From positions 1 to 26,591 of IMG/VR virus record IMGVR_UViG_3300047498_000054: a DNA stretch of 26,591 bases. One strand, 5' to 3'. Made by a program: the position numbers and the translations under genes. The notes below the pieces were generated by a model. The model was not told the origin of the DNA, ran no database searches, and was given only the letters and a program-made list of their open reading frames with translations. The first letter of the stretch is position 1. Every line of letters begins with the position of its first letter. The DNA is from a virus. This document shows positions 5,249 to 24,565 of this stretch, piece by piece.

Positions 5249-5252
5249 AGTT

Positions 5253-8785: not shown

Positions 8786-8815
8786 TTGCCAAGAGGGGGT
8801 GGGGTCTGCTATAGT
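8786..8815 (+). promoter_or_regulatory. Possible promoter of terminase gene
   Basis: TTGCCA (8786-8791), an 18-bp G-rich spacer and TATAGT (8810-8815). Start of transcription would be near 8822, about 34 bases before the chosen ATG. Confidence 0.45.
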
Positions 8816-8855
8816 TGTCGTTGTAAATTTTTTCTGGAAATTTTTTAAACTTTGT

Positions 8856-10304
8856 ATGAGCTTAGCCGAAGCAGCGTGTAGATTTCAGGTTTGGCGTGAC
8901 CATCCAGACGTGTTTGTCAACGAGGTATTGGGCATAAAGCCTGATCATTGGCAGCTAGAGGCATTACAGGCGTTTCCACATAATCAGCGTATAGCTCTTA
9001 GTGCGTGCAAAGGCCCAGGGAAGACGGCGGTTTTGAGTTGGTTAGCGTGGAATTTCCTATTAACGCGGCCATATCCAAAAATAGCTGCGACGGCTATTAC
9101 AGGTTCTAACTTAGCGGACAATTTCTGGACGGAGTGCGCAAAAACCCAGCAGCGCAGCAAATTATTGACGGAAGCATTCACTTACACAAAGACAAGGATT
9201 TTTCTAACAGAATCGCCGGAGACGTGGTGGATGTCGGCGCGGCCATGGAGTAAGTCTGCGGATGCGTCTGAGCAGGGGAATACACTTGCTGGGTTACATG
9301 CGGATTACATTTTATTTTTGATAGACGAGTCTGGTGATATTCCTGAGTCGGTGGCGATGGCGGCGGATGCGGCACTTTCAAGCTGTATTGAGGGTCGAAT
9401 TGTCCAAGCTGGAAACCCAACGAGTTTGCGGGGAATGCTGTATAAAGCTTGCACCCGCGATAGGAAACTATGGTATGTGATCAATATCACATCAGATCCA
9501 CTTGATCCCAAGCGTACACCTCGAGTAAGCATTGAGTGGGCACAGAACCAAATTGACATGTATGGCCGCGAAAATCCGTATGTAAAAGTTAATATTCTTG
9601 GGCAATTTCCTGATGCTGGGTTTAATTCTCTGATAGGCGTTGATGAGATTGAACAGTCTATGAAGCGCTCATACCGTGAGCCGGACTATAGTGCCCATGC
9701 GCGTATACTGGGTTGTGACGTTGCCAGGGGCGGAATGGATAAGAGCGTGATTTATCCACGGCAGGGGTTGCAAATGTTTAATCCGCTTATTTACCGCAAC
9801 ATTGACGGCAACCGAGGCGCGGAGATTGTGAGTAGGAAATATCAGGAATGGGACGCGGACGCGGTCTTTATTGACGACACCGGCGGCTTCGGATCAAGTT
9901 GGATTGATAATCTGAATCGGTTGGGGTTTTCGCCTATCGGGGTGCATTTTAGCGAAAAATCGAATAATCCGCAGTTTTACAACAAGCGTACAGAAATTAT
10001 CTTTGAATTGGTAAACTGGATAAAAAGAGGCGGTGCGTTGCCATATAGTGCCGAAATGCTGGCGTCATTGACAGAAACGACTTATACGCACAAGGGGGAA
10101 TGTCTTATCATTGAGCCAAAGGAGTTAATCAAAGATAGGCTTGGGTATAGCCCGGATGAAATGGACGCCGCAGCTTTAACATTTGCCCAGCCTGTTATGC
10201 GCATGTCGCAGAACCCCGCGTACAATCATGCGAATAAGTTAAGATCAAATTACAATCCTCTTGATCCTAATTATATAAAAAAGATGCTTGCAGAAAGGCG
10301 ATGA
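8856..10304 (+). CDS. terL: Terminase large subunit (DNA packaging ATPase/nuclease)
   Basis: It cuts and pumps phage DNA into the prohead. Starting at ATG 8856 (482 residues) it carries the Walker A ACKGPGKT (about 51-58), the Walker B-like strand ILFLIDES (about 152-159) and the motif IVQAGNPTSLRGMLY. The C-terminal RNase H-like nuclease domain has GCDVARGG (about 286), AVFIDDTGGFGSSW (about 337) and DEMDAAALTFAQP near the end, giving three acidic positions. An upstream in-frame GTG at 8799 would add 19 hydrophobic residues and overlaps promoter-like sequence, so it was not chosen. The family call is firm. Confidence 0.93.
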   Translation: MSLAEAACRFQVWRDHPDVFVNEVLGIKPDHWQLEALQAFPHNQRIALSACKGPGKTAVLSWLAWNFLLTRPYPKIAATAITGSNLADNFWTECAKTQQRSKLLTEAFTYTKTRIFLTESPETWWMSARPWSKSADASEQGNTLAGLHADYILFLIDESGDIPESVAMAADAALSSCIEGRIVQAGNPTSLRGMLYKACTRDRKLWYVINITSDPLDPKRTPRVSIEWAQNQIDMYGRENPYVKVNILGQFPDAGFNSLIGVDEIEQSMKRSYREPDYSAHARILGCDVARGGMDKSVIYPRQGLQMFNPLIYRNIDGNRGAEIVSRKYQEWDADAVFIDDTGGFGSSWIDNLNRLGFSPIGVHFSEKSNNPQFYNKRTEIIFELVNWIKRGGALPYSAEMLASLTETTYTHKGECLIIEPKELIKDRLGYSPDEMDAAALTFAQPVMRMSQNPAYNHANKLRSNYNPLDPNYIKKMLAERR

Positions 10305-10544: not shown

Positions 10545-10660
10545 TTACCCCAGCAAGCAGGTGGGCAACTGCATTTTATTTGTATAGTGTTCAGTGCGGT
10601 TTGGGAAATAACAGCTTGCAGGCAAGGCTGGCACAACCTCTGGCTGGTGACTTGCCATGA
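10541..10660 (+). CDS. Hypothetical protein, 39 aa
   Basis: The frame starts with an ATGA overlap to the previous stop (10541-10544) and ends with an ATGA overlap to the SDR start (10657-10660), so it fills the gap exactly. The product begins MITPASRWATAFYLYSVQCG and ends LAGDLP. Precise tiling is the only evidence that it is translated; it may couple translation of the SDR to the upstream gene. Confidence 0.55.
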   Translation: MITPASRWATAFYLYSVQCGLGNNSLQARLAQPLAGDLP

Positions 10661-11592
10661 AAATTTTAGTGCTTGGAGCCACTGGCTTCATAGGCCACAA
10701 TATAGCGCAATATTTTTCAATGCTTGGTCATGATGTCATTGGTGTATCGCACATTCGTGAAGCAATAGAAATTCCGAATGTAAAATGGATTTACCATTTT
10801 GATCTTTGTTCTCCTGATCGTGTACATAGTATTTTTAAAGATATTAAAAATATTGATGTTGTAATACAAGCCGCTGCAACCACCTCTGGTTCAAAAGATA
10901 TAGTTAATACTCCGGCGATCCACGTTACAGATAATGCCATTATGAATGCGCTGATATTTCGTGCGGCAGTTGATGCAAAAGTAAGGCATGTTGTTTTCTT
11001 TTCATGCACCACCATGTTTCGTCACGGTGTGGTTGCGGAAGATTCTACAATTGATATTCACGATAAATATTTCGGCATAGCGTGGACAAAATTATATAAC
11101 GAAAAAATGTGCGAATTTTACTCTCGCATTGGCGATACAAAATTTACTGCGATACGTCATTCAAATATTTATGGGCCACACGATAAATTTGATCTTGAGC
11201 GTAGCCACGTATTTGGTGCCACAATTCGCAAGGTGATGGATGCGACATCAGATGTTACGGTGTGGGGTTCGGGCGAAGAGGCGCGTGATTTGCTATACGT
11301 GGATGATTTGTGCTCATTTGTGGATGCTGCAATTGAAAAGCAGCCAGGGAAATTTGGTTTGTATAATTGCGGATATGGGCATTCAACTTCCATTAATCGC
11401 TTAGTTGATAGAATTATTGCAACGTCAAGAAAAACATTGCAGGTGAAACATGATTTGACTGCGCCAACAATTCCAACATCCCTTACGCTTGATTGCACAA
11501 AATCAAGAAAAGAATTGGGATGGAAACCAAATGTTACGCTTGATGAAGGCATCGCAAAAACCATTAAATGGTATAAGGAGAATATCGCATGA
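10657..11592 (+). CDS. Extended SDR, nucleotide-sugar epimerase/reductase-like
   Basis: This 311-residue protein has the Rossmann motif GATGFIG (7-13), the D-x-V-I-Q-A-A-A strand (about 67-74), SCTTMF in the catalytic-serine region (about 116) and the downstream IRHSNIYGPHDKF substrate segment, as in WcaG/GDP-fucose synthase relatives. The usual YxxxK is altered: Lys145 is present (GIAWTKLYNEK) but the residue four before it is Ile141, with a Tyr only at 138. It may therefore be an epimerase-only or divergent enzyme. It probably acts on the GDP-sugar made by the other cluster genes (inference). Confidence 0.82.
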   Translation: MKILVLGATGFIGHNIAQYFSMLGHDVIGVSHIREAIEIPNVKWIYHFDLCSPDRVHSIFKDIKNIDVVIQAAATTSGSKDIVNTPAIHVTDNAIMNALIFRAAVDAKVRHVVFFSCTTMFRHGVVAEDSTIDIHDKYFGIAWTKLYNEKMCEFYSRIGDTKFTAIRHSNIYGPHDKFDLERSHVFGATIRKVMDATSDVTVWGSGEEARDLLYVDDLCSFVDAAIEKQPGKFGLYNCGYGHSTSINRLVDRIIATSRKTLQVKHDLTAPTIPTSLTLDCTKSRKELGWKPNVTLDEGIAKTIKWYKENIA

Positions 11593-11837
11593 AATTTTTT
11601 ATCATTATTATGTTTTTATCTTTCCCTGCATATGCAGATTACTATTCTGATAATGCTGCCCAGCGCGAAGTTGAGCAAGACCAGCAATACAAACAGCAAG
11701 TGGAAATTGACAATCAGCGCACGGAGATGCACCGGCAGCAAGAAGAGATTGAGCAGCAAAGGGCGCAATATAGACAGCCAGATGTGCAATACGTTCCCTA
11801 CTCCAATCCAAATCCATCTCCAAACGTGATGAGGTAG
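11589..11837 (+). CDS. Secreted Gln/Glu-rich small protein
   Basis: The N-terminus MKFFIIIMFLSFPAYA is a textbook signal peptide with a likely cleavage after AYA. The mature part is a Gln/Glu/Arg-rich coiled coil (VEQDQQYKQQVEIDNQRTEM) with a Pro/Asn-rich end. It is coupled to the SDR gene by ATGA. An exported protein inside a sugar operon of a phage suggests an effect on the host envelope (inference). No family recognised. Confidence 0.68.
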   Translation: MKFFIIIMFLSFPAYADYYSDNAAQREVEQDQQYKQQVEIDNQRTEMHRQQEEIEQQRAQYRQPDVQYVPYSNPNPSPNVMR

Positions 11838-11838
11838 T

Positions 11839-12822
11839 ATGGGATTCTATACGGGAAAAAAAGTTTTGGTAACTGGCGGCACAGGCCTAATTGGCAGGCC
11901 GCTGGTTAAAATGCTTATTGAGCAGGGAGCGGATGTGACGGTGGCATCATTGGATGATGCGCCAGTACCTCCGATTGGCTCAAGGTTTATTCAAGCGGAT
12001 TTGCGCTACTTTGATTCATGTCAAGAAATATGTGAGGATATGGATATCGTATTTCAATTGGCCGGTATTAAGGGGTCGCCCGTCGCTACATCAAAACAAC
12101 CAGCATCGTTTTTTGTTCCCACACTGCAATTCTCGACCAACATGATGGAGGCTGCCAGACTATCTGGTGTTGGCTGGTATCTTAATACCAGTTCCGTTGG
12201 TGTATATGGCCCAGCGGAAGTATTCCATGAAGATGCTGTCTGGGACGATAAACCATCAACGCACGATAAATTCGCTGGTTGGGCCAAGCGTATAGGGGAG
12301 ATGCAAGCTGAGGCATATAAAATTGAATATGGTTGGGATCGCGTTTCTATTGTGCGTCCTGCTAATGTTTATGGCCCATTTGACAGTTTTTCTGATAATA
12401 GTGCTATGGTTATACCGTCTCTGATAAAAAGAGTCGTAAATGGTGAATATCCCCTTAAGGCATGGGGCGACGGAAGCCCTATTCGTGATTTTATTCATGC
12501 CAGGGATTGTGCTCGCGGTATGATGATCATGGTCGAAAACGGGGTAACCGAGCCTGTAAATCTTGGTTCTGGGGTTGGCGTAAGCATAAAAGAGCTAGCT
12601 GAAACTATCGCCGGGGTGATGAATGTGCCGGTAGAATGGGATACGACAAAGCCAAATGGTGACGCAAAGCGCCTTATGGACACTAAAAGGGCTGAATCTT
12701 ATGGATTTAAACCGGAAATTAGCCTTGTGGACGGTATTATTGAGACGATAGACTGGTATAAGGCCAATATTGGGTATTCAGGGCGCTACAGTTCTTTTGA
12801 CGAGCATAAAGAAGTGTGCTAA
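11839..12822 (+). CDS. Extended SDR, GDP-sugar epimerase/reductase-like
   Basis: This 327-residue protein has GGTGLIG (13-19), FQLAGIKGSPVA, the serine region LNTSSVGVYG (about 115-124) and IVRPANVYGPFDSF. Lys150 of the catalytic pair is visible in KFAGWAKRIGE, but the residue four before it is Ala146 instead of Tyr, like the change in the SDR at 10657. The C-terminal part (AWGDGSPIRDFIHARDCARG) is typical of the family. It follows the secreted gene by one base. Its substrate is probably a GDP-deoxyheptose (inference). Confidence 0.82.
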   Translation: MGFYTGKKVLVTGGTGLIGRPLVKMLIEQGADVTVASLDDAPVPPIGSRFIQADLRYFDSCQEICEDMDIVFQLAGIKGSPVATSKQPASFFVPTLQFSTNMMEAARLSGVGWYLNTSSVGVYGPAEVFHEDAVWDDKPSTHDKFAGWAKRIGEMQAEAYKIEYGWDRVSIVRPANVYGPFDSFSDNSAMVIPSLIKRVVNGEYPLKAWGDGSPIRDFIHARDCARGMMIMVENGVTEPVNLGSGVGVSIKELAETIAGVMNVPVEWDTTKPNGDAKRLMDTKRAESYGFKPEISLVDGIIETIDWYKANIGYSGRYSSFDEHKEVC

Positions 12823-12844
12823 AGTCAATAAAAAAGAGGTTATC

Positions 12845-13030
12845 ATGCCATCAAAAAGCCAAGAACAAGAAAAACTCATGAAAATAGCCGCCCACACCAA
12901 GGGTGGATACGGTGGGGTTCCCCAAAAGGTAGGTGCTGAATTTGAGGCCGCAGATGAAGCCAAATCTGGTCATAAAAAGACTCGCTCCGAAAAGATTAAG
13001 TCCATGTATTCTAAGAAGGACAAAAAATAA
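12845..13030 (+). CDS. Small basic phage protein with MY(S)KK tail
   Basis: The start at 12845 has AGAGG upstream. The product begins MPSKSQEQEKLMKIAAHTKG and continues VPQKVGAEFEAADEAKSG. That layout, MPSKS-x-Q-x-x-LM-x-x-A and then V-A-x-E-F-x-x-A-D, is familiar from short conserved phage proteins near portal genes. The end, EKIKSMYSKKDKK, resembles the tails of the scaffold and of the protein at 25656. It overlaps the next gene by one base. Confidence 0.66.
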   Translation: MPSKSQEQEKLMKIAAHTKGGYGGVPQKVGAEFEAADEAKSGHKKTRSEKIKSMYSKKDKK

Positions 13031-13266
13031 TGGGAATATTTGGTGGCCCGTCAGCCCCTACCGCCCCACCAGCGCCGCCGCCTATGGCCGCGCCCGCAAC
13101 ACAAGCTAATCCGCAGGTGGCTTCTACAGCGGCATCCAATAGGGCAAGAGCAGCAGCAGCCGGTGCGAACAGCGGCGGCACGAATCCGACAGGCCCGCAG
13201 GGATTGCAAGCTTCGCCATCCACAGCACCAGCAACCTTACTTGGTTCCACGAGTACCAGCCAATGA
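13030..13266 (+). CDS. Small Ala/Pro-rich structural protein
   Basis: This 78-residue protein begins MGIFGGPSAPTAPPAPPPMA and has SNRARAAAAGANSGG followed by GPQGLQ and ATLLGS near the end. Many podoviruses have a protein of this composition and ending beside the portal gene, thought to be a minor head component. It is coupled to the gene before (shared base) and after (ATGA). Role not established. Confidence 0.62.
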   Translation: MGIFGGPSAPTAPPAPPPMAAPATQANPQVASTAASNRARAAAAGANSGGTNPTGPQGLQASPSTAPATLLGSTSTSQ

Positions 13267-13388
13267 GCGTTACCCCTAAAATAGCTAATGGTGCACATGT
13301 TCGCAAACAAAGGCGCAGTGTGCGGAAACGTAAACTTGCTAAAGTAGAGGTATTAAACTTAGCAAAGCATGGATTGAAGAGAAATTAA
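13263..13388 (+). CDS. Small basic protein, 41 aa
   Basis: It begins with an ATGA overlap at 13263 and ends at a TAA at 13386-13388. The product is strongly basic (AHVRKQRRSVRKRKLAKVEV). It could bind DNA or RNA inside the head. It lies 22 bases before the portal gene. No family recognised. Confidence 0.55.
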   Translation: MSVTPKIANGAHVRKQRRSVRKRKLAKVEVLNLAKHGLKRN

Positions 13389-13410
13389 CCTTACACAAAA
13401 GAATAAAAAG

Positions 13411-15249
13411 ATGGCAACAAATGCCACAAAAAACGAAGACGTAAATTACGAAAAGTCAGGGCCAGCACTGCTGGCTGCCCAACCTTCCGTTGCGAAAACA
13501 AAGAGCAAGGGTAAGGAGTCTAATCCAGAATGGAATACCCTTCGCGGGCATCTGGAGGCTAGGCTTAATTCCCTATACACATGGCGGCAGTCGTGGTGGA
13601 CTCAGAATTGGTCTGATTTATCGCAGTTCTTGCTTCCTCGCCGCTCAATCTGGCTGACGCAAAGCACTGGTGGCACCCCCACACCGAATAACATGACTCG
13701 CGGGCGGGAGATTAACCAGTCTATTCTTGATCCTACTGGTACTTTTGCTGTCCGTGTTTGTTCTGCTGGCCTGATGTCTGGCCTGGCGTCCCCTTCTCGA
13801 CCATGGTTTAAGGTTACAACAAAACTAAAGAACTATCAGCCAGATGCAGATGGGCGTATCTGGATGGATGAAATTGAAAATCGTATATACACAGTTTTGG
13901 CTGGATCTAATTTTTATAACTGCTTTGCACAAGAGTGTGAAGACCTTGTTGTATTTGGCAGCGCGTGTACAATCATCTACGAAGACGACAAGGATTTGAT
14001 CCGCTGTTATAGCCCTTGCATTGGAGAGTTCTTTTTTTCTTCTGGCGCGTCATTGCGTGTTGATGGTTTATATCGCCGCTTTCTGATGACGGTATCGCAA
14101 ATCGTGGACTTCTTTGGCCTTAAAAACTGTCCTGGCGAAGTACAGAAGCTATGGCAGGCGAAGGGTAGCTCGTTGCAAATTGAGAAAATCATTGCACATA
14201 GCATTGAGCCAAATTTTGGCATTGGCCAATCTAATGCAGGTAAGGTTCCGGGCAATTTTACATGGCGTGAAGTCTATTGGGTATACGGTGCGGCCAATGA
14301 CAAACCGCTTTCCATGCGTGGGTTTATTGACCAGCCATTTACTGCTTCACGGTGGGCTACGCAGGCTAATGACGCATACGGCAGATCGCCGGGTATGGAC
14401 GTCATCCCTGATGTTATGCAGTTGCAGGTTGAGTCCATGCGCAAAGCAGAAGCATTGGAAAAACAGGTAAGGCCGCCATTGCTTGCGGATGCGCAGCTTA
14501 AGAATCAACCGGCGTCAACGTTACCGGGTGAAGTAACTTATATTCAGAACCTGTCTGCCACCAATGGGATGCGTTCTATCTATCAGGTCAATCCCGATAT
14601 TCGCGGCATGATGGAAGATATCGCGTCTATACAGCAGCGGATAAAAATAGGGTTTTTTAATGACCTATTTTTAATGTTGCATGAGGGGCCGGACAAAGAC
14701 ATGACTGCTACAGAAGTGCAGGCTAAACTCCAAGAAAAGATGATGGTGCTTGGGCCTGTAGTAGAAAATTTACTTACAGAATCTTTGAAGCCAAAATTGC
14801 ATAGGATATTTAGCATTCTTCAGCGGCGCGGCATGTTACCGCCGATGCCAGATTCAATGAAGGGCGTACCGCTTGATATAGAATTTACAAGCATCATGGC
14901 CGTTGCTCAGCGTGCCGCCAGCACCGGCGGCTTAGAACGCATTGCATCCATGATAGGTAATCTTGCTGCCGTATATCCAGAAGCAAAAGATGTTATGGAT
15001 GTTGATGCATTCCTGCGTGAGTTTAACGAATTACTTGCCAACCCACAGAAGATATTCCGCTCGCCGGAAGCTATGCAGCAGTTGCGTGAACAGCAGCAAA
15101 AACAACAGGCAGCCGCTACGCAGATGGCCGCAGCACAGCATGGAGCACAGACCGCGAATATCGGCGCACAAGCCGCACAGACGCTTTCAGAGACACAAAT
15201 CGGCGGCGGTGCCACGGCGTTATCACAGCTTATGGGCAGCAAACAATGA
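13411..15249 (+). CDS. Portal (head-to-tail connector) protein
   Basis: This 612-residue protein is a podovirus-type portal of the BPP-1/T7 connector kind. Hallmarks are SLYTWRQSWWTQNWSDLSQF, then LLPRRS, SILDPTGTFAVRVCSAGLMS, followed by ASPSRPWFKV, LVVFGSAC and FNDLFLMLHEGPDKDMTATE. The C-terminal 70 residues are a Gln/Ala-rich coiled coil. Twelve copies form the ring through which DNA enters. The start at 13411 has only a weak AAAAAG upstream. It is followed by three small tiled genes. Confidence 0.92.
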   Translation: MATNATKNEDVNYEKSGPALLAAQPSVAKTKSKGKESNPEWNTLRGHLEARLNSLYTWRQSWWTQNWSDLSQFLLPRRSIWLTQSTGGTPTPNNMTRGREINQSILDPTGTFAVRVCSAGLMSGLASPSRPWFKVTTKLKNYQPDADGRIWMDEIENRIYTVLAGSNFYNCFAQECEDLVVFGSACTIIYEDDKDLIRCYSPCIGEFFFSSGASLRVDGLYRRFLMTVSQIVDFFGLKNCPGEVQKLWQAKGSSLQIEKIIAHSIEPNFGIGQSNAGKVPGNFTWREVYWVYGAANDKPLSMRGFIDQPFTASRWATQANDAYGRSPGMDVIPDVMQLQVESMRKAEALEKQVRPPLLADAQLKNQPASTLPGEVTYIQNLSATNGMRSIYQVNPDIRGMMEDIASIQQRIKIGFFNDLFLMLHEGPDKDMTATEVQAKLQEKMMVLGPVVENLLTESLKPKLHRIFSILQRRGMLPPMPDSMKGVPLDIEFTSIMAVAQRAASTGGLERIASMIGNLAAVYPEAKDVMDVDAFLREFNELLANPQKIFRSPEAMQQLREQQQKQQAAATQMAAAQHGAQTANIGAQAAQTLSETQIGGGATALSQLMGSKQ

Positions 15250-15688: not shown

Positions 15689-15918
15689 CCGACATTACTG
15701 AAGCCCAGACAATTGAATATTTTATGCAAGGCGCAAGAAAAGCCAAATCTGCTGCCCGTGAATTAGCAAAACTTAATCAGACTCATGCATGGACAGCTAT
15801 TCGCAGCCAGCTTGGTATGCTTGAAAAAAATGCTCACAAGATATACAATGACAAGCCACAAACACGCTTACAGACACTTGATTTAGCCATGAAGATTAGT
15901 GGTGACGCAAAACACTAA
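15685..15918 (+). CDS. Hypothetical protein, 77 aa
   Basis: This is a helical, Ala/Lys-rich protein (FMQGARKAKSAARELAKLNQ, then LGMLEKNAHKIYND). It is the last of the three small genes behind the portal. Its stop overlaps the stop of the convergent thiamine-enzyme gene, which marks the left border of the embedded sugar block. Confidence 0.62.
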   Translation: MTDITEAQTIEYFMQGARKAKSAARELAKLNQTHAWTAIRSQLGMLEKNAHKIYNDKPQTRLQTLDLAMKISGDAKH

Positions 15919-16490
15919 GCGTGATATTTTTCGACCCACTCTACAAGTAGCGTTGATCCTTCTCTTTGCATTGCATCTTTATACGCAGGTACAATCTGTT
16001 CTGCCGTATGCAACCGCACTACCTTAACCGTCGATAGCATTGCCTCAATAGCATCCGTGTAGTTACCTATATGCTGGGGGCCGGGATCGAGCGGATTGAT
16101 TGTGGCAATGGATGTGCGGATAATTACTTTGGGCTTATAGTCGCTGAACAGCGGTATTTTATCGAGGTGTTGAACGAGTTGTGGTATCGCTTCCAACATG
16201 AAATTAATGCGAGGGTAGCAGGTGCATACCAGTTGCCCAGTAAGCGAAATACCAGTTGCCATCCCAAGTTGAGTGCTTTCGAATATTGGCATCTCGATAC
16301 GCTGATCTATAGGCACATCACGAAAAGTTGAATTCATGGCAGTACCAGCATCGCGAACTGTCTGTCCGGTAAAAATGCAACCATTATCGGAAAGCATCTT
16401 CATGGCAGCACATAGATTTTCAAAATATTCGTTCAAAACTGGATACGGCGTCCCGCGCCCGAATGTGGATAATGTTGTGACAAATCCCAT
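15915..16490 (-). CDS. Thiamine-diphosphate enzyme, beta (pyrimidine-domain) subunit
   Basis: The protein resembles the Pyr domain of PDH-E1-beta/transketolase. RIEMPIFESTQLGMATGISL holds the glutamate that activates the thiamine ring, and the end has DPGPQHIGNYTDAIEAML and TVKVVRLHTAEQI. It stops before the transketolase C-terminal domain, so it is only about 175-191 residues. ATG 16490 is the longest start, but recognisable similarity begins at the TTG at 16436, which overlaps the alpha stop; ATG 16403 is another option. With the alpha subunit it should transfer a two-carbon unit (inference). Confidence 0.78.
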   Translation of the reverse strand: MGFVTTLSTFGRGTPYPVLNEYFENLCAAMKMLSDNGCIFTGQTVRDAGTAMNSTFRDVPIDQRIEMPIFESTQLGMATGISLTGQLVCTCYPRINFMLEAIPQLVQHLDKIPLFSDYKPKVIIRTSIATINPLDPGPQHIGNYTDAIEAMLSTVKVVRLHTAEQIVPAYKDAMQREGSTLLVEWVEKYHA

Positions 16491-17023
16491 TGATAATAAT
16501 AGTCTGGTTTAATACCCCGATACTCAGGCCATACGTCTTTAGTAATGGTGCATACGCTTTTACCGTTGTCCTCAACGACAGATACTAGTGGCAGATCATG
16601 TTCTTTTGCATAATTATAGCACTCCATAGCGATACCAGTCTGTGCCGTCATATCGCCAATACAAACCCACACTTTATTGCTGCTGCCCATTCTTTTTAAT
16701 TGCCAAGCAACACCGAGCGCAATTGGTATGATGCCAGCAACTATTGCTGATGAAAAGAATCTATGTTCTGGCGAGCACACGGTCATTGACCGCCCCGCCA
16801 TAATTTGACGGCGCACTTCTTCGGGCGGTATTCCAGCTAACAATGCGTGATAATGATTTCGCCACTGACTGAAAAAATAATCTCCATTTTTAAAATCCTT
16901 GAAGATTTTTATCAGGGCGTCTTCATTGCCTTTTGAAAGATGAATTGGATACGGGATTTCAGCATTATTAAATGCTGTGGCTATTGAAGTTTCAAAATCA
17001 ATTAGTTCTTGTTTTGTTATCAT
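16433..17023 (-). CDS. Thiamine-diphosphate enzyme, alpha (PP-domain) subunit
   Basis: This 196-residue protein resembles PDH-E1-alpha. It has the N-terminal IPYPIHLSKGNEDALIKIF and SQWRNHYHALLAGIPPEEV, then EHRFFSSAIVAGIIPIALGV, and the cofactor motif GDM...x...EDNGKS, matching the GDG-(x25-30)-N pattern for Mg-thiamine-diphosphate. It ends with HYPHSGAGRRIQF, about 120 residues shorter than PDH-E1-alpha. ATG 17023 is used because a -10 TATAAT lies six bases upstream, so the gene is probably leaderless. Adjacent deoxysugar genes suggest a sugar-branching reaction as in yersiniose (inference). Confidence 0.78.
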   Translation of the reverse strand: MITKQELIDFETSIATAFNNAEIPYPIHLSKGNEDALIKIFKDFKNGDYFFSQWRNHYHALLAGIPPEEVRRQIMAGRSMTVCSPEHRFFSSAIVAGIIPIALGVAWQLKRMGSSNKVWVCIGDMTAQTGIAMECYNYAKEHDLPLVSVVEDNGKSVCTITKDVWPEYRGIKPDYYYQWDLSQHYPHSGAGRRIQF

Positions 17024-17057
17024 GAGGTGATTATAATCACCCACATGGAAAAGACAA
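17009..17057. promoter_or_regulatory. Divergent promoter pair sharing a palindromic -10
   Basis: GTGATTATAATCAC (17027-17040) is a perfect palindrome with TATAAT on both strands. Rightward: TTGTTT (17009-17014), 17-bp spacer, TATAAT (17032-17037), seven bases, ATG 17045. Leftward: TTGTCT (complement of 17052-17057), 16-bp spacer, TATAAT (complement of 17030-17035), CACCTC, ATG 17023. Both transcripts would begin at or beside the start codon. Confidence 0.7.
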
Positions 17058-17947
17058 GTAAAATTTTGGTCACGGGAGCATCCGGCTTAATTGGATCGGC
17101 ATTGATTCGGTTGTTGAGGATGAAAGGTTATGGGAACGTTTGCGCTCCTACCCGTGAGGAATTAAATTTAGAACATCAAACAGAAGTATTTAATTATTTT
17201 GGGGAAAACTATTTCGATTATGTATTCCATCTAGCTGCCTGCGTTGGCGGCATAAGAGATAATAACGAAAAACCAGCGGAATTTATATATAGAAACACCC
17301 TAATGCACTGCAATATACTGGGGGCATGTAATTTTATTGGTGGCGTTAAATTGCTCTTCCCCGGTTCGGCTTGTGCGTATCCTTTAATATCGCCGCAGCC
17401 AATTAAAGAATCATCGTTTATGCATGGGATGCCAGAACCTACAAATTTAGCATATGCAGTTGCAAAAATCAACGGTATCGTGATGGCGCAGTCTTATGCG
17501 AAACAGTACGGTATGAATGTGGTACTTCCTATGGTGGCCAATACCTATGGCATAGGTGATAGGTCATCTCATGTTATCCCGCAAATGATGAAAAAATTTA
17601 AAGACACAAATGGCGAGATAGTTCTATACGGCTCAGGCTCGCCGTTAAGGGAATTTATATATGCGGATGATGTCGCCTCTGCGTTTCTATTCCTGATGAA
17701 TAATTACAATAGTCCAGAGATTATCAATGTTGGTACGGAAGAAGAAGTACGTATCTGCGTTTTGGCTTATCGTATCGCCAAGTTATTTGGTAAGGAACAT
17801 TCCTATAAATTTGATCCTGCGATGCCAGACGGAATTGCGCGTAAGTGCCTTGATTCATCCCGCATCCGTGCAATGGGATGGGAGCCGAAAGTGAAATTGG
17901 AAAATGGATTAAAGAGGATTTATGAAAATATCCAAAACCCCTTTTAG
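17045..17947 (+). CDS. GDP-fucose synthase/ColC-like epimerase-reductase
   Basis: This 300-residue protein is a clear relative of Fcl (GDP-L-fucose synthase) and ColC. It has GASGLIG (11-17), RDNNEKPAEFIYRNTLMHCN, the catalytic GSACAYP (Ser108, Cys110), LAYAVAKINGI with Tyr137 and Lys141, and SHVIPQMMKKF with His176. These match the Fcl set Ser/Cys/Tyr/Lys/His, so both C3/C5 epimerisation and C4 reduction should work. Behind a ColD-like enzyme it would perform the ColC step on a heptose (inference). ATG 17045 is chosen from the promoter spacing. It overlaps the kinase gene by 26 bases. Confidence 0.86.
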   Translation: MEKTSKILVTGASGLIGSALIRLLRMKGYGNVCAPTREELNLEHQTEVFNYFGENYFDYVFHLAACVGGIRDNNEKPAEFIYRNTLMHCNILGACNFIGGVKLLFPGSACAYPLISPQPIKESSFMHGMPEPTNLAYAVAKINGIVMAQSYAKQYGMNVVLPMVANTYGIGDRSSHVIPQMMKKFKDTNGEIVLYGSGSPLREFIYADDVASAFLFLMNNYNSPEIINVGTEEEVRICVLAYRIAKLFGKEHSYKFDPAMPDGIARKCLDSSRIRAMGWEPKVKLENGLKRIYENIQNPF

Positions 17948-18908
17948 GATTTCTTTTTTTGGAGGAGGAACGGACTACGCGCCATGGTACTCAAAACACG
18001 GAGGTGCAGTTTTATCTACGACGATTGACAAATATTGTTTTATTACCGCACGCTTTTTACCGCCATTTTTTCCAAACAAATCGCGTGTTGTATGGAATAG
18101 GATAGAGGAGCCACAGTCAAATGATGAAATTCAACATCCGTCTGTAAGGGCGGTTCTAAAGCACCTTAGTATTGAAAGCGGTATTGAGATACATACTATG
18201 GGCGATCTGCCGTCTCGTTCCGGGCTTGGTTCGTCATCGACATTTACCGTGGGGCTATTAAATGTTCTAAGTTCATTGCGGGGAAAATCTTTCAATAAGG
18301 CCGGACTCGCATTGGAGGCGGTACACATCGAGCGCGAAATACTAAAAGAGAATGTTGGTATTCAGGATCAGTTGGCCGCTGCCTATGGTGGGCTAAACAA
18401 AACCACGATACATCAAGATGGCGGGTTTTTCATAGAGCCAGTAAAGATCCCATTTGAGCGCATGTTAGAATTGCAAAATCATTGCATGTTATTTTTTACT
18501 GGTGTTTCCCGATCAGCATCTGATATAGCGGCGGAACAAATAGCGTCACAGTCTCGTGGTGAAAAAGATGCTGAGCTTCATCGTATGCGCGAGATGGTGG
18601 ACACCGCCATAGGAATTCTTAAATACAACGTTAACATTTCAGAATTTGGCAATCTGCTTGATGAGTCGTGGCAAATAAAGCGCACGCTGGCCAAGAATAT
18701 CTCCCCACAATTTGTGGATGATATTTACGAAAGAGGCCGCAATGCCGGTGCCATAGGCGGCAAGCTACTTGGTGCTGGCGGCGGAGGGTTTATGTTGTTC
18801 TTTGCGAAACCAGAGAATCATGATAAAATCCGCGCTGAATTAAGCGATTTATTATGGATTCCATTTAAATTTGAGAACAAAGGAAGCGAGATTATTTATG
18901 GGCTATGA
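17922..18908 (+). CDS. hddA: D-glycero-D-manno-heptose 7-phosphate kinase-like GHMP kinase
   Basis: HddA phosphorylates heptose 7-phosphate at C1 on the way to GDP-heptose. This 328-residue protein has the family start RISFFGGGTDYAPWYSKHGG, the GHMP ATP loop LPSRSGLGSSS (about 96-106), EREILKENVGIQDQLAAAYG, and the C-terminal motif GGKLLGAGGGGFMLFF. The GGGTDY-x-x-WY motif is characteristic of HddA-type kinases rather than galactokinase; LmbP of the lincomycin octose pathway is a close relative. It is translationally coupled to the ColC-like gene. The D-alpha (GDP) branch is supported by the presence of HddC. Confidence 0.85.
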   Translation: MKISKTPFRISFFGGGTDYAPWYSKHGGAVLSTTIDKYCFITARFLPPFFPNKSRVVWNRIEEPQSNDEIQHPSVRAVLKHLSIESGIEIHTMGDLPSRSGLGSSSTFTVGLLNVLSSLRGKSFNKAGLALEAVHIEREILKENVGIQDQLAAAYGGLNKTTIHQDGGFFIEPVKIPFERMLELQNHCMLFFTGVSRSASDIAAEQIASQSRGEKDAELHRMREMVDTAIGILKYNVNISEFGNLLDESWQIKRTLAKNISPQFVDDIYERGRNAGAIGGKLLGAGGGGFMLFFAKPENHDKIRAELSDLLWIPFKFENKGSEIIYGL

Positions 18909-19203
18909 TGCAAATGATCCAAAACAGATTGCTAAAGCAAAAAAGCAGGCAGAGTTTAATGACGCTTTGAAGTTGGATGTTATTCGCGGTATTATGGCTA
19001 GTCCAGCGGGGCGTCAATGGATATACGGTATATTGGAGCGTTGCCACATTTATGGCAATCCCTTTACACCTGGGCAGAGTGATTCTACCGCTTTTAACCT
19101 TGGTGAAGCTAATATCGGAAGGATTTTTCTTTCTGATGTTCAGTCCGCTGCCCCGGATCTTTATCTGACAATGATACAGGAAGCAAAGAATATTTCTGCA
19201 TAA
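18898..19203 (+). CDS. Bbp19-like phage protein
   Basis: This 101-residue protein reads DVIRGIMASPAGRQWIYGIL, then CHIYGNPFTPGQSDSTAFNL and DLYLTMIQEA. The order 'helix; G-R-x-W/F-x-x-x-L-L-E-x-x-x-x-x-x-x-F; D-x-x-x-T-A-F-N-x-G; L-Y-x-x-M' matches the Bbp19-like domain of BPP-1-type podoviruses, found between portal and capsid genes. It overlaps the kinase gene by 11 bases although it belongs to the head module, and its 3' end overlaps the convergent aminotransferase gene by 95 bases. Confidence 0.78.
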   Translation: MGYDANDPKQIAKAKKQAEFNDALKLDVIRGIMASPAGRQWIYGILERCHIYGNPFTPGQSDSTAFNLGEANIGRIFLSDVQSAAPDLYLTMIQEAKNISA

Positions 19204-20368
19204 ACTTACTGAATACGCTGATAACGTAATCTTGGTTTTCCTTAGTGATTGCGTGGTGGCATCCTATGGCAAATCCACGATTCATAATGATGTCGCAATT
19301 TTCCAGTGTCCCTGAGATACGATGTTTATACATTTTAAGTGCAGGGTGACGTGCCATGTTACCAGCGATAATGGGGCGCGTTTCTACACCATTTTTTTGC
19401 AAAAATGATGTAATTTCTTTTAATGAGAATGGGCATTCTTCGGTTAATACTATACCAAAACCAAACCAGCTTGCTTCTCGTGAGTTTTCTGCAAGTTGAA
19501 ACCGGAAATATTTTTGGTACGGCTCTAGTCCAAGCAGGTAGTTATTGTATCCCTTTCTTCTTGTCAAAACGAAGTCATGCAATTTGGGGAGTTGCTTCAT
19601 ACCCATAACAGCTTGAACTTCTGTCGGGCGCAGATTATACCCAAGGTTTATGAAAATGAACCTTGGATCTATCTCTGGGTACTTCTTTGCGTACATTTCA
19701 TGATTGTCAGATTCTCTGCTCCACCCATGTGCTCGCAATACACGCATTAAGTCTATGATATCTGGATTGCCAAAACATAACCCACCTTCAAATGTTGTAA
19801 TGTGGTGCGAGTAATAAAGGCTCATAGTGCCAACGTCGCCAAATGTTCCAACGTACCGTCCGCACCATTTCGCCCCCATGCTCTCGCAGGTATCTTCTAT
19901 CACATACAAGTTATGCTTGCGTGCTATGCTCATAATTAAATCCATATTGCACGGATTGCCGTACACATGAACAACCATGATGGCGCGGGTTTTAGGGGTA
20001 ATCGCCGCTATCAGTTTTTCATAGTCGAAATTATAAGTAGCCAAGTCGCAATCTACAAAAACAGGAACCAGATTATGCTGGATAATGGGCCATACGGTAG
20101 TTGCCCAAGATAATGCCGGAACGATAACCTCATCACCCGATTTCATGTGATCAAGCCATGCGGGATTACATAGAGCAGCCACAGCAAGCAGGTTGGCGCT
20201 TGATCCAGAGTTGCACATTAATGCGGTACTGTTTCCAAAATAATTCCCACACTGTTCTTCAAATTTCCGCACCTGCTTTCCCATTGTAACTTGTGTCGTG
20301 CGCATCTGCGTTACAGCGGCTTCAATTTCATCTTCACCAAATGATGGTTCGTGCAAATTTACGCGCAT
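19109..20368 (-). CDS. ColD-like GDP-4-keto-6-deoxy-sugar 3-dehydratase
   Basis: This 419-residue protein has the PLP aminotransferase fold of the DegT/DnrJ family: NSGSSANLLAVAALCNP (cofactor phosphate), IIQHNLVPVFVDCD, YVIEDTCESMGAKW (Asp159) and LGYNLRPTEVQAVMG. At the place of the PLP-binding lysine it has His188 (YYSHHITTFEGG), the signature of ColD, which removes the C3 hydroxyl with PMP and glutamate. It should therefore make a 3,6-dideoxy-4-keto sugar. About the last 31 residues are encoded opposite the Bbp19-like gene and may be an acquired extension. It is the last gene of the leftward sugar operon. Confidence 0.87.
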   Translation of the reverse strand: MRVNLHEPSFGEDEIEAAVTQMRTTQVTMGKQVRKFEEQCGNYFGNSTALMCNSGSSANLLAVAALCNPAWLDHMKSGDEVIVPALSWATTVWPIIQHNLVPVFVDCDLATYNFDYEKLIAAITPKTRAIMVVHVYGNPCNMDLIMSIARKHNLYVIEDTCESMGAKWCGRYVGTFGDVGTMSLYYSHHITTFEGGLCFGNPDIIDLMRVLRAHGWSRESDNHEMYAKKYPEIDPRFIFINLGYNLRPTEVQAVMGMKQLPKLHDFVLTRRKGYNNYLLGLEPYQKYFRFQLAENSREASWFGFGIVLTEECPFSLKEITSFLQKNGVETRPIIAGNMARHPALKMYKHRISGTLENCDIIMNRGFAIGCHHAITKENQDYVISVFSKFMQKYSLLPVSLSDKDPGQRTEHQKEKSFRY

Positions 20369-20371
20369 ATA

Positions 20372-21379
20372 TTACCTCGTTAAGAATTTCTGTGTTTTTA
20401 CTCGTTCTCTCCAGTATTCTAAGAGATCGGCAATCGTCTGCTCAAACGATATTTCCGGTTTCCATCCCGTATGAGCCTTAAATTTCGAACAATCGAAGGT
20501 CTGGTTATCTGCGTCAATAGGGCGCAACCTTTCCGGGTCAATTACGATTTGCGGCTTAATGCGCGAAAGCGACAAAAGATAATTTAGGCACTCTCCAACT
20601 TTTGCCACATGGTTCCCAGCGATATTGTAGTATGCGCCCGGTTGCGGGTTGACTGTCAATAGCATGTGATAAGCCCTTACCGCATCGCGCACGTCGGCGT
20701 AGGTGCGAAGGCTATCGAGGTTCCCGACATTCAAAATCGCGGGTATCTGCCCCGCTTCCATCATGGCAACCTGCTTGGCGAAAGTTGATTCATGGAAAAC
20801 ATCTCCCCGCCTTGGGCCAGTGTGTGTTCCCATTCTTGTTACCTGTACGTTCATACCGTACGCCTCAGCGTAGAATCTGCCAATTAAGTCTGTGCCGACT
20901 TTTGAGATGGCATAAGGCGAGGCAGGCATAAAGCCGCATTCTTCATTGATAGGCAGCTTATCTTTGGTAACACGGCCATATACTTCGCTACTTGAACAAA
21001 CATGAATTAGCGCATCTTTTTTATACTGCCGCAAAGCCTCAAGTAAGCGCGACGTACCTTGAATATTCGTATCATAAGTGTCAATGGGAGCAGTAAAAGA
21101 AGTTTTCGGATAGCTCTGCGCTGCCAGGTGGAATACCATATCAGGTTGTGATTGCCTGACACATTCGTTGATTGAGTCTGAATCTCGCAAGTCTCCATAA
21201 AGAAGATGAATTCTTTTATTGTCATTGATGAGCGGTAATAAGTGGGCGATGTTATCGAGAGGTGAGCGCCAACGTATGAGTCCGAATATTTCATAATCTG
21301 TATTCTCCAAAAGATAATCAGCAAGATGGCTTCCAACCATTCCTGTTAGCCCTGTAATTAAGCATCTAGTCTTCGACAT
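20372..21379 (-). CDS. GDP-mannose/GDP-heptose 4,6-dehydratase
   Basis: This 335-residue extended SDR is close to Gmd and DmhA/WcbK. It has the Rossmann motif GLTGMVGSH (about 9-17), LYGDLRDSDSINECV, VFHLAAQSYPKTSF, the catalytic SSSEVYG, and ASPYAISKVGTDLIGRFYAE with intact YxxxK. TGPRRGDVFHESTFAKQVAM and YYNIAGN follow Gmd. It converts the GDP-sugar to its 6-deoxy-4-keto form. Because GmhA, HddA and HddC-like genes are in the same cluster, the substrate is probably GDP-D-glycero-D-manno-heptose (DmhA role) rather than GDP-mannose; sequence alone does not decide. Confidence 0.87.
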   Translation of the reverse strand: MSKTRCLITGLTGMVGSHLADYLLENTDYEIFGLIRWRSPLDNIAHLLPLINDNKRIHLLYGDLRDSDSINECVRQSQPDMVFHLAAQSYPKTSFTAPIDTYDTNIQGTSRLLEALRQYKKDALIHVCSSSEVYGRVTKDKLPINEECGFMPASPYAISKVGTDLIGRFYAEAYGMNVQVTRMGTHTGPRRGDVFHESTFAKQVAMMEAGQIPAILNVGNLDSLRTYADVRDAVRAYHMLLTVNPQPGAYYNIAGNHVAKVGECLNYLLSLSRIKPQIVIDPERLRPIDADNQTFDCSKFKAHTGWKPEISFEQTIADLLEYWRERVKTQKFLTR

Positions 21380-21923
21380 CTGATTTTACCTTCTCATAAC
21401 CATCAGGAGTACCTGCGTCGGTAAACCATGGGATATGATAAAATTCATGTGGGATATTAGGTATTACGTCTTTTTCAAATGAGAAGGCACCATCGTATTC
21501 ATCTAATATATGCGGCCTCATTATATAAATACCTGCGCTTACCCCAGATTCGTCAACGGCAATACTCAATGGCATTGTGCGCTTAAACGTCATATCAATA
21601 TAATTGCAGGTTGAAACCGTATCGCCATTTACTACCAGTACCGGATCATCTCCCTCTATGCAGTTCTTTATAGCACCGCCAGTTCCCAATGGAATTTCTT
21701 CTATTTTGTATTTCACTGATTCTTGTTGACAGAATTTCATGAACTGATCCGCCTTATGATGCAGAGCCAAGGTAATATCCGTAATTCCCTGCTTTTTCAT
21801 ATTGCGTACAATATAATAGACAAGAGGCTTTTCCATCACTTCAACCATACATTTGGGGATTTTGTCTTGTGTTATAGGATGAAGCCTGGTTCCAAATCCG
21901 CCAGCAAGTATTATGGCTTTCAT
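21366..21923 (-). CDS. hddC: Heptose 1-phosphate guanylyltransferase-like protein
   Basis: HddC joins GTP and D-glycero-D-manno-heptose 1-phosphate to GDP-heptose. The N-terminal nucleotide-binding signature LAGGFGTRLHPITQDKIPKC is present, followed by VEVMEKPLVYYIV, EEIPLGTGGAIKNC, VVNGDT with the metal-binding Asp, and WFTDAGTPDGYEKV at the end. At 185 residues it is about 45 shorter than typical HddC, with loss between the NGDT and DAGTP motifs. Its stop overlaps the 4,6-dehydratase start by 14 bases, and its start overlaps gmhA by four. Confidence 0.83.
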   Translation of the reverse strand: MKAIILAGGFGTRLHPITQDKIPKCMVEVMEKPLVYYIVRNMKKQGITDITLALHHKADQFMKFCQQESVKYKIEEIPLGTGGAIKNCIEGDDPVLVVNGDTVSTCNYIDMTFKRTMPLSIAVDESGVSAGIYIMRPHILDEYDGAFSFEKDVIPNIPHEFYHIPWFTDAGTPDGYEKVKSDVED

Positions 21924-22426
21924 CGTGGAAACATAGCGGCTTCAATAAGTCCGCAAAATATGTGTCCCAATTTAATATGATCTTCTTGTATTTCTTGGGT
22001 GTTAGTAGATGGAGAATTGTAAATAATATCGCACCTGCTATCAAAGCCAGAAGTATTGCCCCCAGTTAGTCCGATAACATGCATATTAGATTTTCTGGCA
22101 ACATCCATCGCCTTTAGTACATTCGCGGAATTTCCAGAAGTTGACATGGCGATTAATACATCTCCAGCCTTTCCTATGGCTTCAATTTGGCGCGAAAAGA
22201 TATATTCAAATCCGTAGTCGTTGCCAATAGCTGTTATAATGGAAGTATCGGTGGTGAGGGATATTGCGGCAAGTGGCGGGCGGTCATAATTTAATTTTCC
22301 AACTAGCTCTGCTGCTAGATGTTGGGCATCGGCAGCACTTCCGCCATTTCCTATAAAAAAAATGGTGCCCTTATATTTAAGGGATTTTACACAAAGACAC
22401 GCTATCTGATTTGCATCTTCCATCAT
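21920..22426 (-). CDS. gmhA: Phosphoheptose isomerase-like protein, short N-terminus
   Basis: GmhA turns sedoheptulose 7-phosphate into D-glycero-D-manno-heptose 7-phosphate. The SIS domain is clear: IFFIGNGGSAADAQHLAAEL (catalytic Glu40), AIGNDYGFEYIFSRQIEAIG, IAMSTSGNSANVLKAM, and IQEDHIKLGHIF with the catalytic His. The start at 22426 overlaps the upstream stop as ATGA and a stop lies shortly before it, so the protein lacks about 25-30 N-terminal residues found in E. coli GmhA (a helix used in tetramer packing). Active-site residues remain. Confidence 0.86.
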   Translation of the reverse strand: MMEDANQIACLCVKSLKYKGTIFFIGNGGSAADAQHLAAELVGKLNYDRPPLAAISLTTDTSIITAIGNDYGFEYIFSRQIEAIGKAGDVLIAMSTSGNSANVLKAMDVARKSNMHVIGLTGGNTSGFDSRCDIIYNSPSTNTQEIQEDHIKLGHIFCGLIEAAMFPR

Positions 22427-22687: not shown

Positions 22688-23464
22688 ATGGTTGATGAAA
22701 TTGCAAATTCTACGCCTACCTCGACGGCCTCACCAGCGGCCACCGTTGCTGAGGCCGTTGTATCAACCCCCGTTACTGAAGTATCTAGTGTAGCTCCTGC
22801 GGTAGTTCAAGCCCCAGTAGAAGCGGCTCATGCTGTAGTAGAAGCGCCAAAACAAGAAATACTCCTAGCTCAAAAACCGGTTGAAGAAAAACCCGTTGAA
22901 GCTAAGGCTGAAGTAAAAACCGAGGAAGCTCCTGTTGAAGTGAAAACAGAAGAAGCGGTTATTGAACAACCTAAATATGAATTTAAATTTCCAGAGGGCG
23001 TCACCGTTGATGATGCAAAAATTGGAGATTTTACTCAAATGCTCGGAGAATTTGAAACCACGGCTAAAGTTCCGCATGAAGAAGTGCAAAAACTTGGTCA
23101 GCAGATGGTTGAACGTCATATCGCGGAAGTTCAGAGATATACCGAATCTTTGACTCAGGCATGGGAAAAACAAGCAAATGACTGGAAAGACTCGTTTTTA
23201 AAGTCGCCAGAATTTGCTAATCGCACAGACACCGTTCTTCGTTCTGCGCAGAATGCTATTGATACATTTTCCGGCGATGCAAAAAATGCTCAGGAATTTC
23301 GTGATTTGATGGAGTCTAGCAAGGTTGGTAATCACCCCGCCATGATTAGGCTCTTGTCGAATGTGATGCTGGCGAAAGCAGAAGGTAAGCCGCTTGCCGC
23401 GCCTCAGATTGCTACGCCTGCTAGAGAAAGTAAGATTACCAAAATGTATGGTAAGAAAAGTTAA
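22688..23464 (+). CDS. Scaffolding protein
   Basis: This 258-residue acidic protein resembles T7 gp9/podovirus scaffolds, which guide capsid assembly and leave before packaging. The first 95 residues are low-complexity Ala/Val/Pro/Glu (TASPAATVAEAVVSTPVTEV). Then come YEFKFPEGVTVDDAKIGDFT, helices around AWEKQANDWKDSFLKSPEF, and GNHPAMIRLLSNVMLAKAEG. The C-terminus ESKITKMYGKKS matches tails of two other small proteins and may bind capsid. It lies directly before the capsid gene. Confidence 0.82.
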   Translation: MVDEIANSTPTSTASPAATVAEAVVSTPVTEVSSVAPAVVQAPVEAAHAVVEAPKQEILLAQKPVEEKPVEAKAEVKTEEAPVEVKTEEAVIEQPKYEFKFPEGVTVDDAKIGDFTQMLGEFETTAKVPHEEVQKLGQQMVERHIAEVQRYTESLTQAWEKQANDWKDSFLKSPEFANRTDTVLRSAQNAIDTFSGDAKNAQEFRDLMESSKVGNHPAMIRLLSNVMLAKAEGKPLAAPQIATPARESKITKMYGKKS

Positions 23465-23512: not shown

Positions 23513-24565
23513 ATGGTATTTACAGCTAATATTTTTCCGAACATCGTGGATTGGGCGAAGAGCACAGATCCAGATGGTGCAATTGCGGACATCGCAGAAT
23601 TGCTTGCACAGTCCAATGAGGTAATGAAAGACATTATCTGGCAGGAAGGTAATTTGCCAACTGGTCATCGTACATCGATTCGTGTTGGTTTGCCACAGGG
23701 CACATGGCGCACAGCCAATGCCGGTGTTGCTTCTACCAAGCCGCTCCAGGCGCAGTTCGATATTGCAATTGGCGAATTGGTTGATTACAGCCTCGTCGAT
23801 AAATCGATTGCCTTACTGAATGGTAATGTTGATAAGTTCCGCTATTCTCAGGATATGGCTCACGTACAGGGTCTTGGTCAGCAGGTTGCTTCGGCTATCT
23901 TCTACTCAAACGAAGCGGTTAACCCATCACAGTTTACCGGCTTCTTCCCATTTTATAACACCGTGTCTACTGCCAATGCTCAGTCCGCTGTTAACGTAAT
24001 CGATGGCGGCGGTACTGGTAGTTCAAACGCATCAATCCTGCTTACGGGATGGGGTGATGATACAACCTTCATGGTGTTCCCAAAAGGATCAACTGCTGGC
24101 CTCGTCTATGAAGATAAAGGCGACGTTCGTGCGCTTTATGACAGCAACGGCAACCAGTATGAAGGTTATACCTCATATTTCTGCTGGAAATTAGGTCTGT
24201 GCCCAAAGAATTGGGAATACAACGTGCGTATTGCTAACCTCGATACTACGAGCGCAGGTTTAGCTGGTACGACCCCACCCGATCTGTATGTGCTGATGTC
24301 GGAAGCCGTTAATAAACTCCCAACAGCAACTCGTCGTTTATCTGGCATCACTGAAGTTGATTCGCCAACCGATCCGTCACCTGGTATTTTGCCAGCTTGG
24401 TATTGCAACCGCGTAATCCGTACCGCTCTGGATATTCAGGCGATCCGCGATAAAAACGTATTGCTCTCGATGAATGACTACGCTGGTCAGCCAGTAATGC
24501 ATTTCCGCGAGGTGCCCATCCGTGTGTGCGATGCACTTACGCAGACTGAATCACGAGTTGTATAA
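23513..24565 (+). CDS. Major capsid protein (GP7-like, BPP-1 type)
   Basis: This 350-residue protein is the likely shell subunit. It has the features of GP7-type podovirus capsid proteins: IAELLAQSNEVMKDIIWQEG, NLPTGHRTSIRVGLPQGTWR, GELVDYSLVDKSIALLNGN and, at the end, YAGQPVMHFREVPIRVCDAL. A strong AGGAG ribosome site lies six bases before the ATG. Position between scaffold and cement genes agrees. HK97-fold is inferred, not seen. Confidence 0.9.
   Translation: MVFTANIFPNIVDWAKSTDPDGAIADIAELLAQSNEVMKDIIWQEGNLPTGHRTSIRVGLPQGTWRTANAGVASTKPLQAQFDIAIGELVDYSLVDKSIALLNGNVDKFRYSQDMAHVQGLGQQVASAIFYSNEAVNPSQFTGFFPFYNTVSTANAQSAVNVIDGGGTGSSNASILLTGWGDDTTFMVFPKGSTAGLVYEDKGDVRALYDSNGNQYEGYTSYFCWKLGLCPKNWEYNVRIANLDTTSAGLAGTTPPDLYVLMSEAVNKLPTATRRLSGITEVDSPTDPSPGILPAWYCNRVIRTALDIQAIRDKNVLLSMNDYAGQPVMHFREVPIRVCDALTQTESRVV

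Follow-up and report, generated by a model that had tools for sequence, protein, structure and literature searches.

A GDP-heptose gene cassette in an uncultured phage fragment and a possible route to a branched 3,6-dideoxyheptose

The pathway to GDP-3,6-dideoxyheptoses has been established in Campylobacter jejuni HS:5, HS:11 and HS:45 (Ghosh, Xiang and Raushel 2023; PMC10440746), and we describe here a similar set of sugar genes in a virus, IMG/VR record IMGVR_UViG_3300047498_000054. The window that we analyzed is this whole record, 26,591 bases, and is by gene content a partial phage genome. Like the phage, C. jejuni has gmhA, hddA, hddC, a GDP-heptose 4,6-dehydratase and a pyridoxal or pyridoxamine phosphate (PLP/PMP)-dependent C3-dehydratase, followed by epimerization and C4 reduction (PMC10440746). 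Unlike the phage genes, those of C. jejuni serve a bacterial capsule and include a separate C5-epimerase, and no thiamine diphosphate (ThDP or TPP) enzyme is among the enzymes reported (PMC10440746). The C. jejuni C3-dehydratase shares 62-67% of its residues with two known hexose C3-dehydratases; the phage enzyme has diverged much further. The C. jejuni C5-epimerase is of the RmlC type.

AviB1/B2, Pau11/12 and KbDH (aKADH2) are two-subunit E1-type enzymes that attach a pyruvate-derived C2 branch to keto-sugars during antibiotic biosynthesis, with Pau11 and Pau12 measuring 325 and 345 amino acids (aa) (PMC4425429, PMC12247030). The phage pair is likewise a two-subunit E1-type ThDP enzyme encoded among deoxysugar genes, and is alike in predicted fold; the described enzymes come from actinomycete antibiotic pathways, with Pau11/Pau12 about double the size of the phage subunits. 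In the yersiniose pathway of Yersinia, YerE/YerF similarly place a C2 unit onto a 4-keto-3,6-dideoxy nucleotide sugar derived from a PMP C3-dehydratase, but YerE is a single-chain enzyme of the decarboxylase superfamily using a CDP-hexose, and the two-chain E1-type phage enzyme does not fit it. His-type C3-dehydratases yield the 4-keto-3-deoxy sugars that YerE branches. Among phages, the cultured cyanophages SynMITS9220M01, Bellamy, S-SM2 and P-TIM68 have a DmhA-like gene (52-55%) with heptose kinase/isomerase genes, or a fused TPP homologue. The lipopolysaccharide (LPS) genes in the host-recognition cluster of pelagimyophages also lie in the structural region of marine phages and are proposed to alter the host O-chain, although they were described as general LPS deoxysugar enzymes and glycosyltransferases, not as a phage's dideoxyheptose pathway (PMC7029224).

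The window contains eight intact sugar genes at 15915-22426, between the portal and scaffold genes, and two more, SDR1 and SDR2, between TerL and portal, for a total of ten (Table 1). All eight stood at the places and in the families given in the original prediction, as judged by best solved relatives and motifs. The pathway range in that prediction was too narrow, since by their conserved gene neighborhoods the two short-chain dehydrogenase/reductase (SDR) genes at 10657-12822 belong to it. Tentatively, and with somewhat less than even confidence, we propose an undescribed pathway common to phages and ocean bacteria, in which a minimal E1-type ThDP enzyme, with two SDR families lacking the YxxxK motif, would branch GDP-3,6-dideoxy-4-keto-heptose and many uncultured phages would make a new surface or virion sugar. 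Synthesis of the GDP-3,6-dideoxyheptose itself is known chemistry in a new carrier: the predicted pathway is supported by heptose-specific matches, and its supposed novelty as a colitose analogue is not, as C. jejuni HS:5/HS:11 make this sugar (PMC10440746).

All four of GmhA, HddA, HddC and DmhA have a heptose-specific best match among solved proteins. For DmhA, which bears CSSSE and YAISK motifs, this is the C. jejuni GDP-D-glycero-D-manno-heptose 4,6-dehydratase (7us5; 356 bits, E 1e-105), followed by a GDP-6-deoxy-lyxo-hexulose reductase (186 bits) and E. coli Gmd (152 bits, E 1.6e-43). HddA, with GLGSSS and GAGGGG motifs, is closest to heptose kinases (PDB 3k85, 9e-40), HddC to the Y. pseudotuberculosis '6-deoxy-D-mannoheptose pathway' protein (PDB 6jq8/5xhw) and GmhA to bacterial phosphoheptose isomerases (PDB 2xbl, E 2e-51, aligned from its residue 34); in-frame stop codons lie close upstream of the GmhA start. 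A heptose rather than mannose substrate is thus supported on sequence grounds. The use of GDP-mannose, leading to a colitose-like hexose, would accord with the roles of the ColD and Fcl families as hexose enzymes in E. coli O55, but is highly improbable given the presence and conservation of GmhA, HddA and HddC and the 204 bits by which DmhA scores higher against the heptose dehydratase than against Gmd.

Because none of the sugar enzymes reaches the NCBI equivalog cut-offs, they are divergent members of their families. HddC (185 aa) and GmhA (168 aa) are also shorter than their bacterial homologues, as are the 186- and 174-aa forms in a related phage, L047, whose sugar genes match in kind, order and strand at 58-76% protein identity. 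Between the two phages synonymous sites in the sugar genes are saturated and the ratio of nonsynonymous to synonymous change (pN/pS) is 0.20-0.35, like that of the portal and scaffold genes, as expected of genes under purifying selection and not decaying. We rejected broken or frameshifted genes as an explanation for the short proteins on the basis of these ratios and the similar lengths in L047.

The ColD-type enzyme matches ColD in the PDB (E 1.8e-76) and the RfbH model NF011936 (2e-107), and the SHH of its motif YYSHHITT aligns with ColD His188, the residue expected of a PMP-dependent C3-dehydratase. The diagnostic His of the original prediction is therefore present, at a position where two further ColD entries have N or K; we take these to be H188N and H188K mutants. 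This residue is also typical of the DegT proteins found near the module, 166 of 171 of which have it, compared with 7 of 26 in a control from ten bacterial genomes carrying TPP-alpha; the control is small and not phylogenetically independent, and it is conservative because among the seven proteins with His a few are module-type or lie near TPP-alpha. A ColD scan of viral contigs with a single sequence gave nothing, and an alignment query was required. The Fcl-type protein belongs to the GDP-fucose synthase family (PDB 7ll6, E 1e-66) and, in agreement with the complete catalytic set that had been claimed for it, has all five equivalents of Ser107, Cys109, Tyr136, Lys140 and His179. We think it likely that GDP-3,6-dideoxy-4-keto-heptose is an intermediate of the pathway.

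TPP-alpha matches TIGR03182 (1.6e-22), and the Pfam domains in the two subunits are E1_dh and Transket_pyr. AlphaFold2 gave models with predicted local distance difference test scores of 93 (TPP-alpha) and 96.4 (TPP-beta). When these were searched against the PDB, all matches listed for TPP-alpha were E1-alpha, and ranks 1-15 for TPP-beta were all E1-beta, with transketolase and DXS below. The predicted two-subunit E1 fold is accompanied by ThDP motifs: the catalytic Glu of TPP-beta, in the motif FESTQLG, is invariant in 46 sequences, and in 48 TPP-alpha sequences G123, E151 and N153 are invariant, with D124 and M125 close to invariant. Near the TPP genes we saw no lipoyl E2 gene. As modeled, the enzyme is a minimal E1-type (pyruvate-dehydrogenase-like) protein and not YerE-type. 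A two-carbon branch added as by YerE had been suggested as a possibility; context and fold support the branching role, which by analogy we modestly favor, with AviB1/B2 replacing YerE as the analogue. In L047, a 115-aa open reading frame (ORF; 5012-5359) that is absent from the window lies between TPP-alpha and TPP-beta.

The TPP genes accompany GmhA and HddA, and cyanophage homologues annotated 'transketolase central region' sit beside phosphoheptose isomerase genes, which is what a split transketolase feeding sedoheptulose-7-phosphate to GmhA would predict; the enzyme would then supply precursor and add no branch. We consider this quite improbable. In fold searches with either subunit, E1 proteins come out on top, and phage L026 has a separate two-subunit transketolase (12801-14445, between SDR1 and SDR2) alongside the same TPP pair. 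Transketolase alpha also accompanies TPP in 12 of 48 bacterial loci, and the association with His-type DegT proteins would be unexplained.

SDR1 and SDR2 retain the NAD-binding motif, and the classical YxxxK is absent from both families. In SDR1 an invariant Tyr precedes the Lys by seven residues, a motif conserved in 20 relatives, and in the SDR2 motif D-x-[FY]-[PA]-G-W-A-K-R the aromatic position is not strictly conserved. Both altered families are conserved across phages and bacteria, with SDR1 homologues 48-54% identical located beside ColD, TPP and SDR2 in phages L004, L153, L154, L155 and L016. The SDR1 and SDR2 reactions are not assignable by analogy to Fcl.

A database search for the same gene set, as suggested in the original prediction, found it in the close relative L047, in dozens of other viral contigs and in SAR11, SAR116 and SAR202 bacteria. 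SDR1 and SDR2 are contiguous with the ColD and TPP genes in L004, and in viral contig L154 the contiguous order is DmhA-ColD-TPPab-SDR1-HddA-SDR2, followed by TerL. Across 80 viral loci fetched with SDR2 we found DmhA in 68, a His-type ColD in 73, TPP-alpha in 63 and an RmlC-type epimerase in 68; loci overlap between scans and are partly redundant among viruses, and we treat this co-occurrence as context evidence. The association is not one lineage resampled, since the 79 SDR2 sequences of the viral loci form 37 clusters at 90% identity. Bacterial loci fetched using TPP-alpha alone include a SAR202-type Chloroflexi (L123; HddC-GmhA-TPPa-TPPb-DmhA-HddA-NUDIX-SDR2-RmlC-SDR1) and a SAR116 bacterium (L136; RmlC-TPPa-TPPb-ColD-SDR2-SDR3-SDR1-DmhA-HddC-HddA). 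The statement that no described phage has this combination holds for isolates in the phage record collection, where TPP-alpha matched eight records, none seen with DmhA and ColD together, and no cultured phage record was seen combining DmhA, a ColD-type gene, the TPP pair, SDR1 and SDR2. It does not extend to uncultured viral contigs, where the combination is common, and heptose genes in phages had already been reported (PMC7378029). In the literature searched, which omitted most subscription journals, we found no description in phages or bacteria of DmhA and ColD with a minimal E1-type TPP pair and SDR1/SDR2.

The cassettes also vary. A B12-binding radical S-adenosylmethionine enzyme recurs near the TPP pair in many phages and bacteria (L012, L013, L041, L109, L130 and most of L158-L169), which suggests further modified, perhaps C-methylated, sugar variants. 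L013 (13275-13670), L154 (11185-11610), L163, L166, L167 and L169, in which HddC was not detected, have a small CTP_transf_like nucleotidyltransferase (131-141 aa) close to HddA; the activating nucleotide may be different in these phages. A PfkB-type kinase follows DmhA in L201 (13611-14348) and L175 (13625-14763); L175 adds a nucleotidyltransferase-like ORF, and the two together resemble a split HldE, a possible second heptose-precursor route in viral cassettes.

From gene identities, catalytic residues, purifying selection, the predicted E1 fold and co-inheritance, we infer substrate, branching, stereochemistry and target as follows. GmhA, HddA and HddC, with a host GmhB phosphatase, would convert sedoheptulose-7-phosphate to GDP-D-glycero-D-manno-heptose, from which DmhA would form GDP-6-deoxy-4-keto-heptose and the ColD-type enzyme, by taking off the 3-OH, GDP-3,6-dideoxy-4-keto-heptose. 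The E1-type enzyme would then decarboxylate a 2-oxoacid, probably pyruvate, and place the C2 unit onto the C4 ketone, with SDR1, SDR2 and the Fcl-type enzyme carrying out ring epimerization and/or reduction of the branch ketone. We favor branching because the TPP partner is often a His-type C3-dehydratase and E1-like two-subunit enzymes add C2 branches to keto-sugars; that a C2 branch is added seems to us somewhat probable. The most likely product, in which we have moderate confidence, is a GDP-linked 3,6-dideoxyheptose with a C2 branch at C4. The original prediction had combined C4 branching with ColC-style C4 reduction, but on one molecule these are mutually exclusive because branching consumes the C4 ketone. 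If C4 is branched, the Fcl-type enzyme may act in an earlier epimerization, in branch-ketone reduction or on a second sugar.

The Fcl-type enzyme could instead serve as C5-epimerase/C4-reductase for an unbranched GDP-3,6-dideoxyheptose of the kind that C. jejuni HS:5/HS:11 make; the TPP enzyme would then have another purpose or act on a second sugar. Its complete catalytic set would suit this role, C. jejuni biochemistry proves the whole route but for the TPP step (PMC10440746), and in phage loci L252, L255 and L258 an Fcl-type gene is paired with DmhA, HddA and GmhA with no TPP enzyme detected. No RmlC-type gene was recognized in the window, though many related loci have one. We regard an unbranched product as unlikely; it would not account for the association of the TPP subunits, SDR1 and SDR2 with DmhA and ColD, or for the enrichment of His-type DegT proteins near TPP-alpha.

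Several observations nevertheless count against the branched heptose. The full C4-reductase residues of the Fcl-type enzyme would be superfluous at C4 of a C4-branched product. TPP-beta is without the E1-beta C-terminal domain, and the subunits (196 and ~173 aa) are half the size of Pau11/Pau12 and short of a full-length E1; we do not class the pair as a member of the branching subfamily. In bacterial loci L123, L124 and L127, DmhA, TPP, SDR1 and SDR2 occur with ColD not detected, and the acceptor therefore need not be a 3-deoxy sugar. Finally, neither a GmhB phosphatase nor a glycosyltransferase was recognized in the 26.6-kb fragment, and GmhB would therefore be needed from the host.

A glycosyltransferase of the host or encoded outside the fragment would transfer the sugar to host LPS/O-antigen or to the virion. 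Use on LPS fits because bacterial homologues sit in polysaccharide-type loci, and pelagimyophage LPS-gene islands are read as O-chain modification (PMC7029224). Both points speak against the same sugar decorating virion proteins, or phage DNA, instead of host LPS, and no DNA-base modification gene was recognized. Late use on virions would fit in its turn because the genes sit in the packaging/structural region of several unrelated phages. In the window and in L047 they stand among TerL, portal, scaffold and major capsid protein genes; in L004 and L154 TerL is their neighbor; and in L013 and several of L158-L169 portal or tail genes and CgeB-like glycosyltransferases lie close by. On balance we think virion decoration possible but somewhat unlikely. 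If the proposed pathway is correct, phages themselves encode the greater part of a route to an elaborate sugar that may be absent from their hosts, which goes beyond single LPS decoration swaps. The pathway would include a compact ThDP carboligase of two subunits and two SDR families in which the standard catalytic motif is missing. As the cassette recurs across many unrelated viral contigs and bacteria of the SAR11, SAR116 and SAR202 groups, marine cells or virions may often carry the sugar, which may bear on phage resistance.

Table 1. Sugar genes and neighboring phage genes in the window
Feature	Position	Strand	Description
TerL	8799-10304		phage packaging gene
SDR1	10657-11592	+	extended SDR, PF01370; NAD motif GATGFIG; Tyr-x6-Lys replacing Tyr-x3-Lys
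SDR2	11839-12822	+	extended SDR, GDP-fucose-synthase-like; D-x-[FY]-[PA]-G-W-A-K-R replacing YxxxK
Portal	13411-15249		phage structural gene
TPP-beta	15915-16490	-	minimal E1-beta-like subunit, ~173 aa from conserved start near 16436
TPP-alpha	16433-17023	-	minimal E1-alpha-like subunit, 196 aa; ThDP motif GDM...EDN
Fcl-type epimerase/reductase	17045-17947	+	ATG at 17045 taken as start, not TTG at 17009
HddA-type heptose-7-phosphate 1-kinase (GHMP)	17922-18908	+	NF049969 best model
phrog_528 phage gene	18871-19203	+	E 6.6e-14; outside the pathway though interleaved in the sugar cluster
ColD-type PMP-dependent C3-dehydratase	19109-20368	-	His replaces the PLP Lys
DmhA-type GDP-heptose 4,6-dehydratase	20372-21379	-	PDB 7us5 match
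HddC-type GDP-heptose pyrophosphorylase, compact	21366-21923	-	185 aa; NF049965 best model
GmhA sedoheptulose-7-phosphate isomerase	21920-22426	-	without N-terminal ~28 residues
Protease/scaffold-like	22688-23464		phage structural gene
Major capsid protein	23513-24565		phage structural gene

The window also encodes an ERF recombinase and a VapE-type helicase/primase. Host contamination was rejected as a source of the sugar genes, given the phrog_528 gene inside the cluster, which is present at the same place in L047, and phage structural genes on both sides. The conserved starts of TPP-alpha (17023) and Fcl (17045) are divergent and 21 bases apart. A promoter candidate upstream of gmhA (22597-22568, an 11/12 site) was discarded, the promoter scan being at chance (26 found versus 29 expected). 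The window contains no tRNA and no Rfam match, and a near-identity DNA search of phages gave no match to it. At the record edge (1-250) is a 27-base tandem repeat of 9.3 copies with 94% matches, which is open on the minus strand and reads as repeated YSTAASSG-type peptides.

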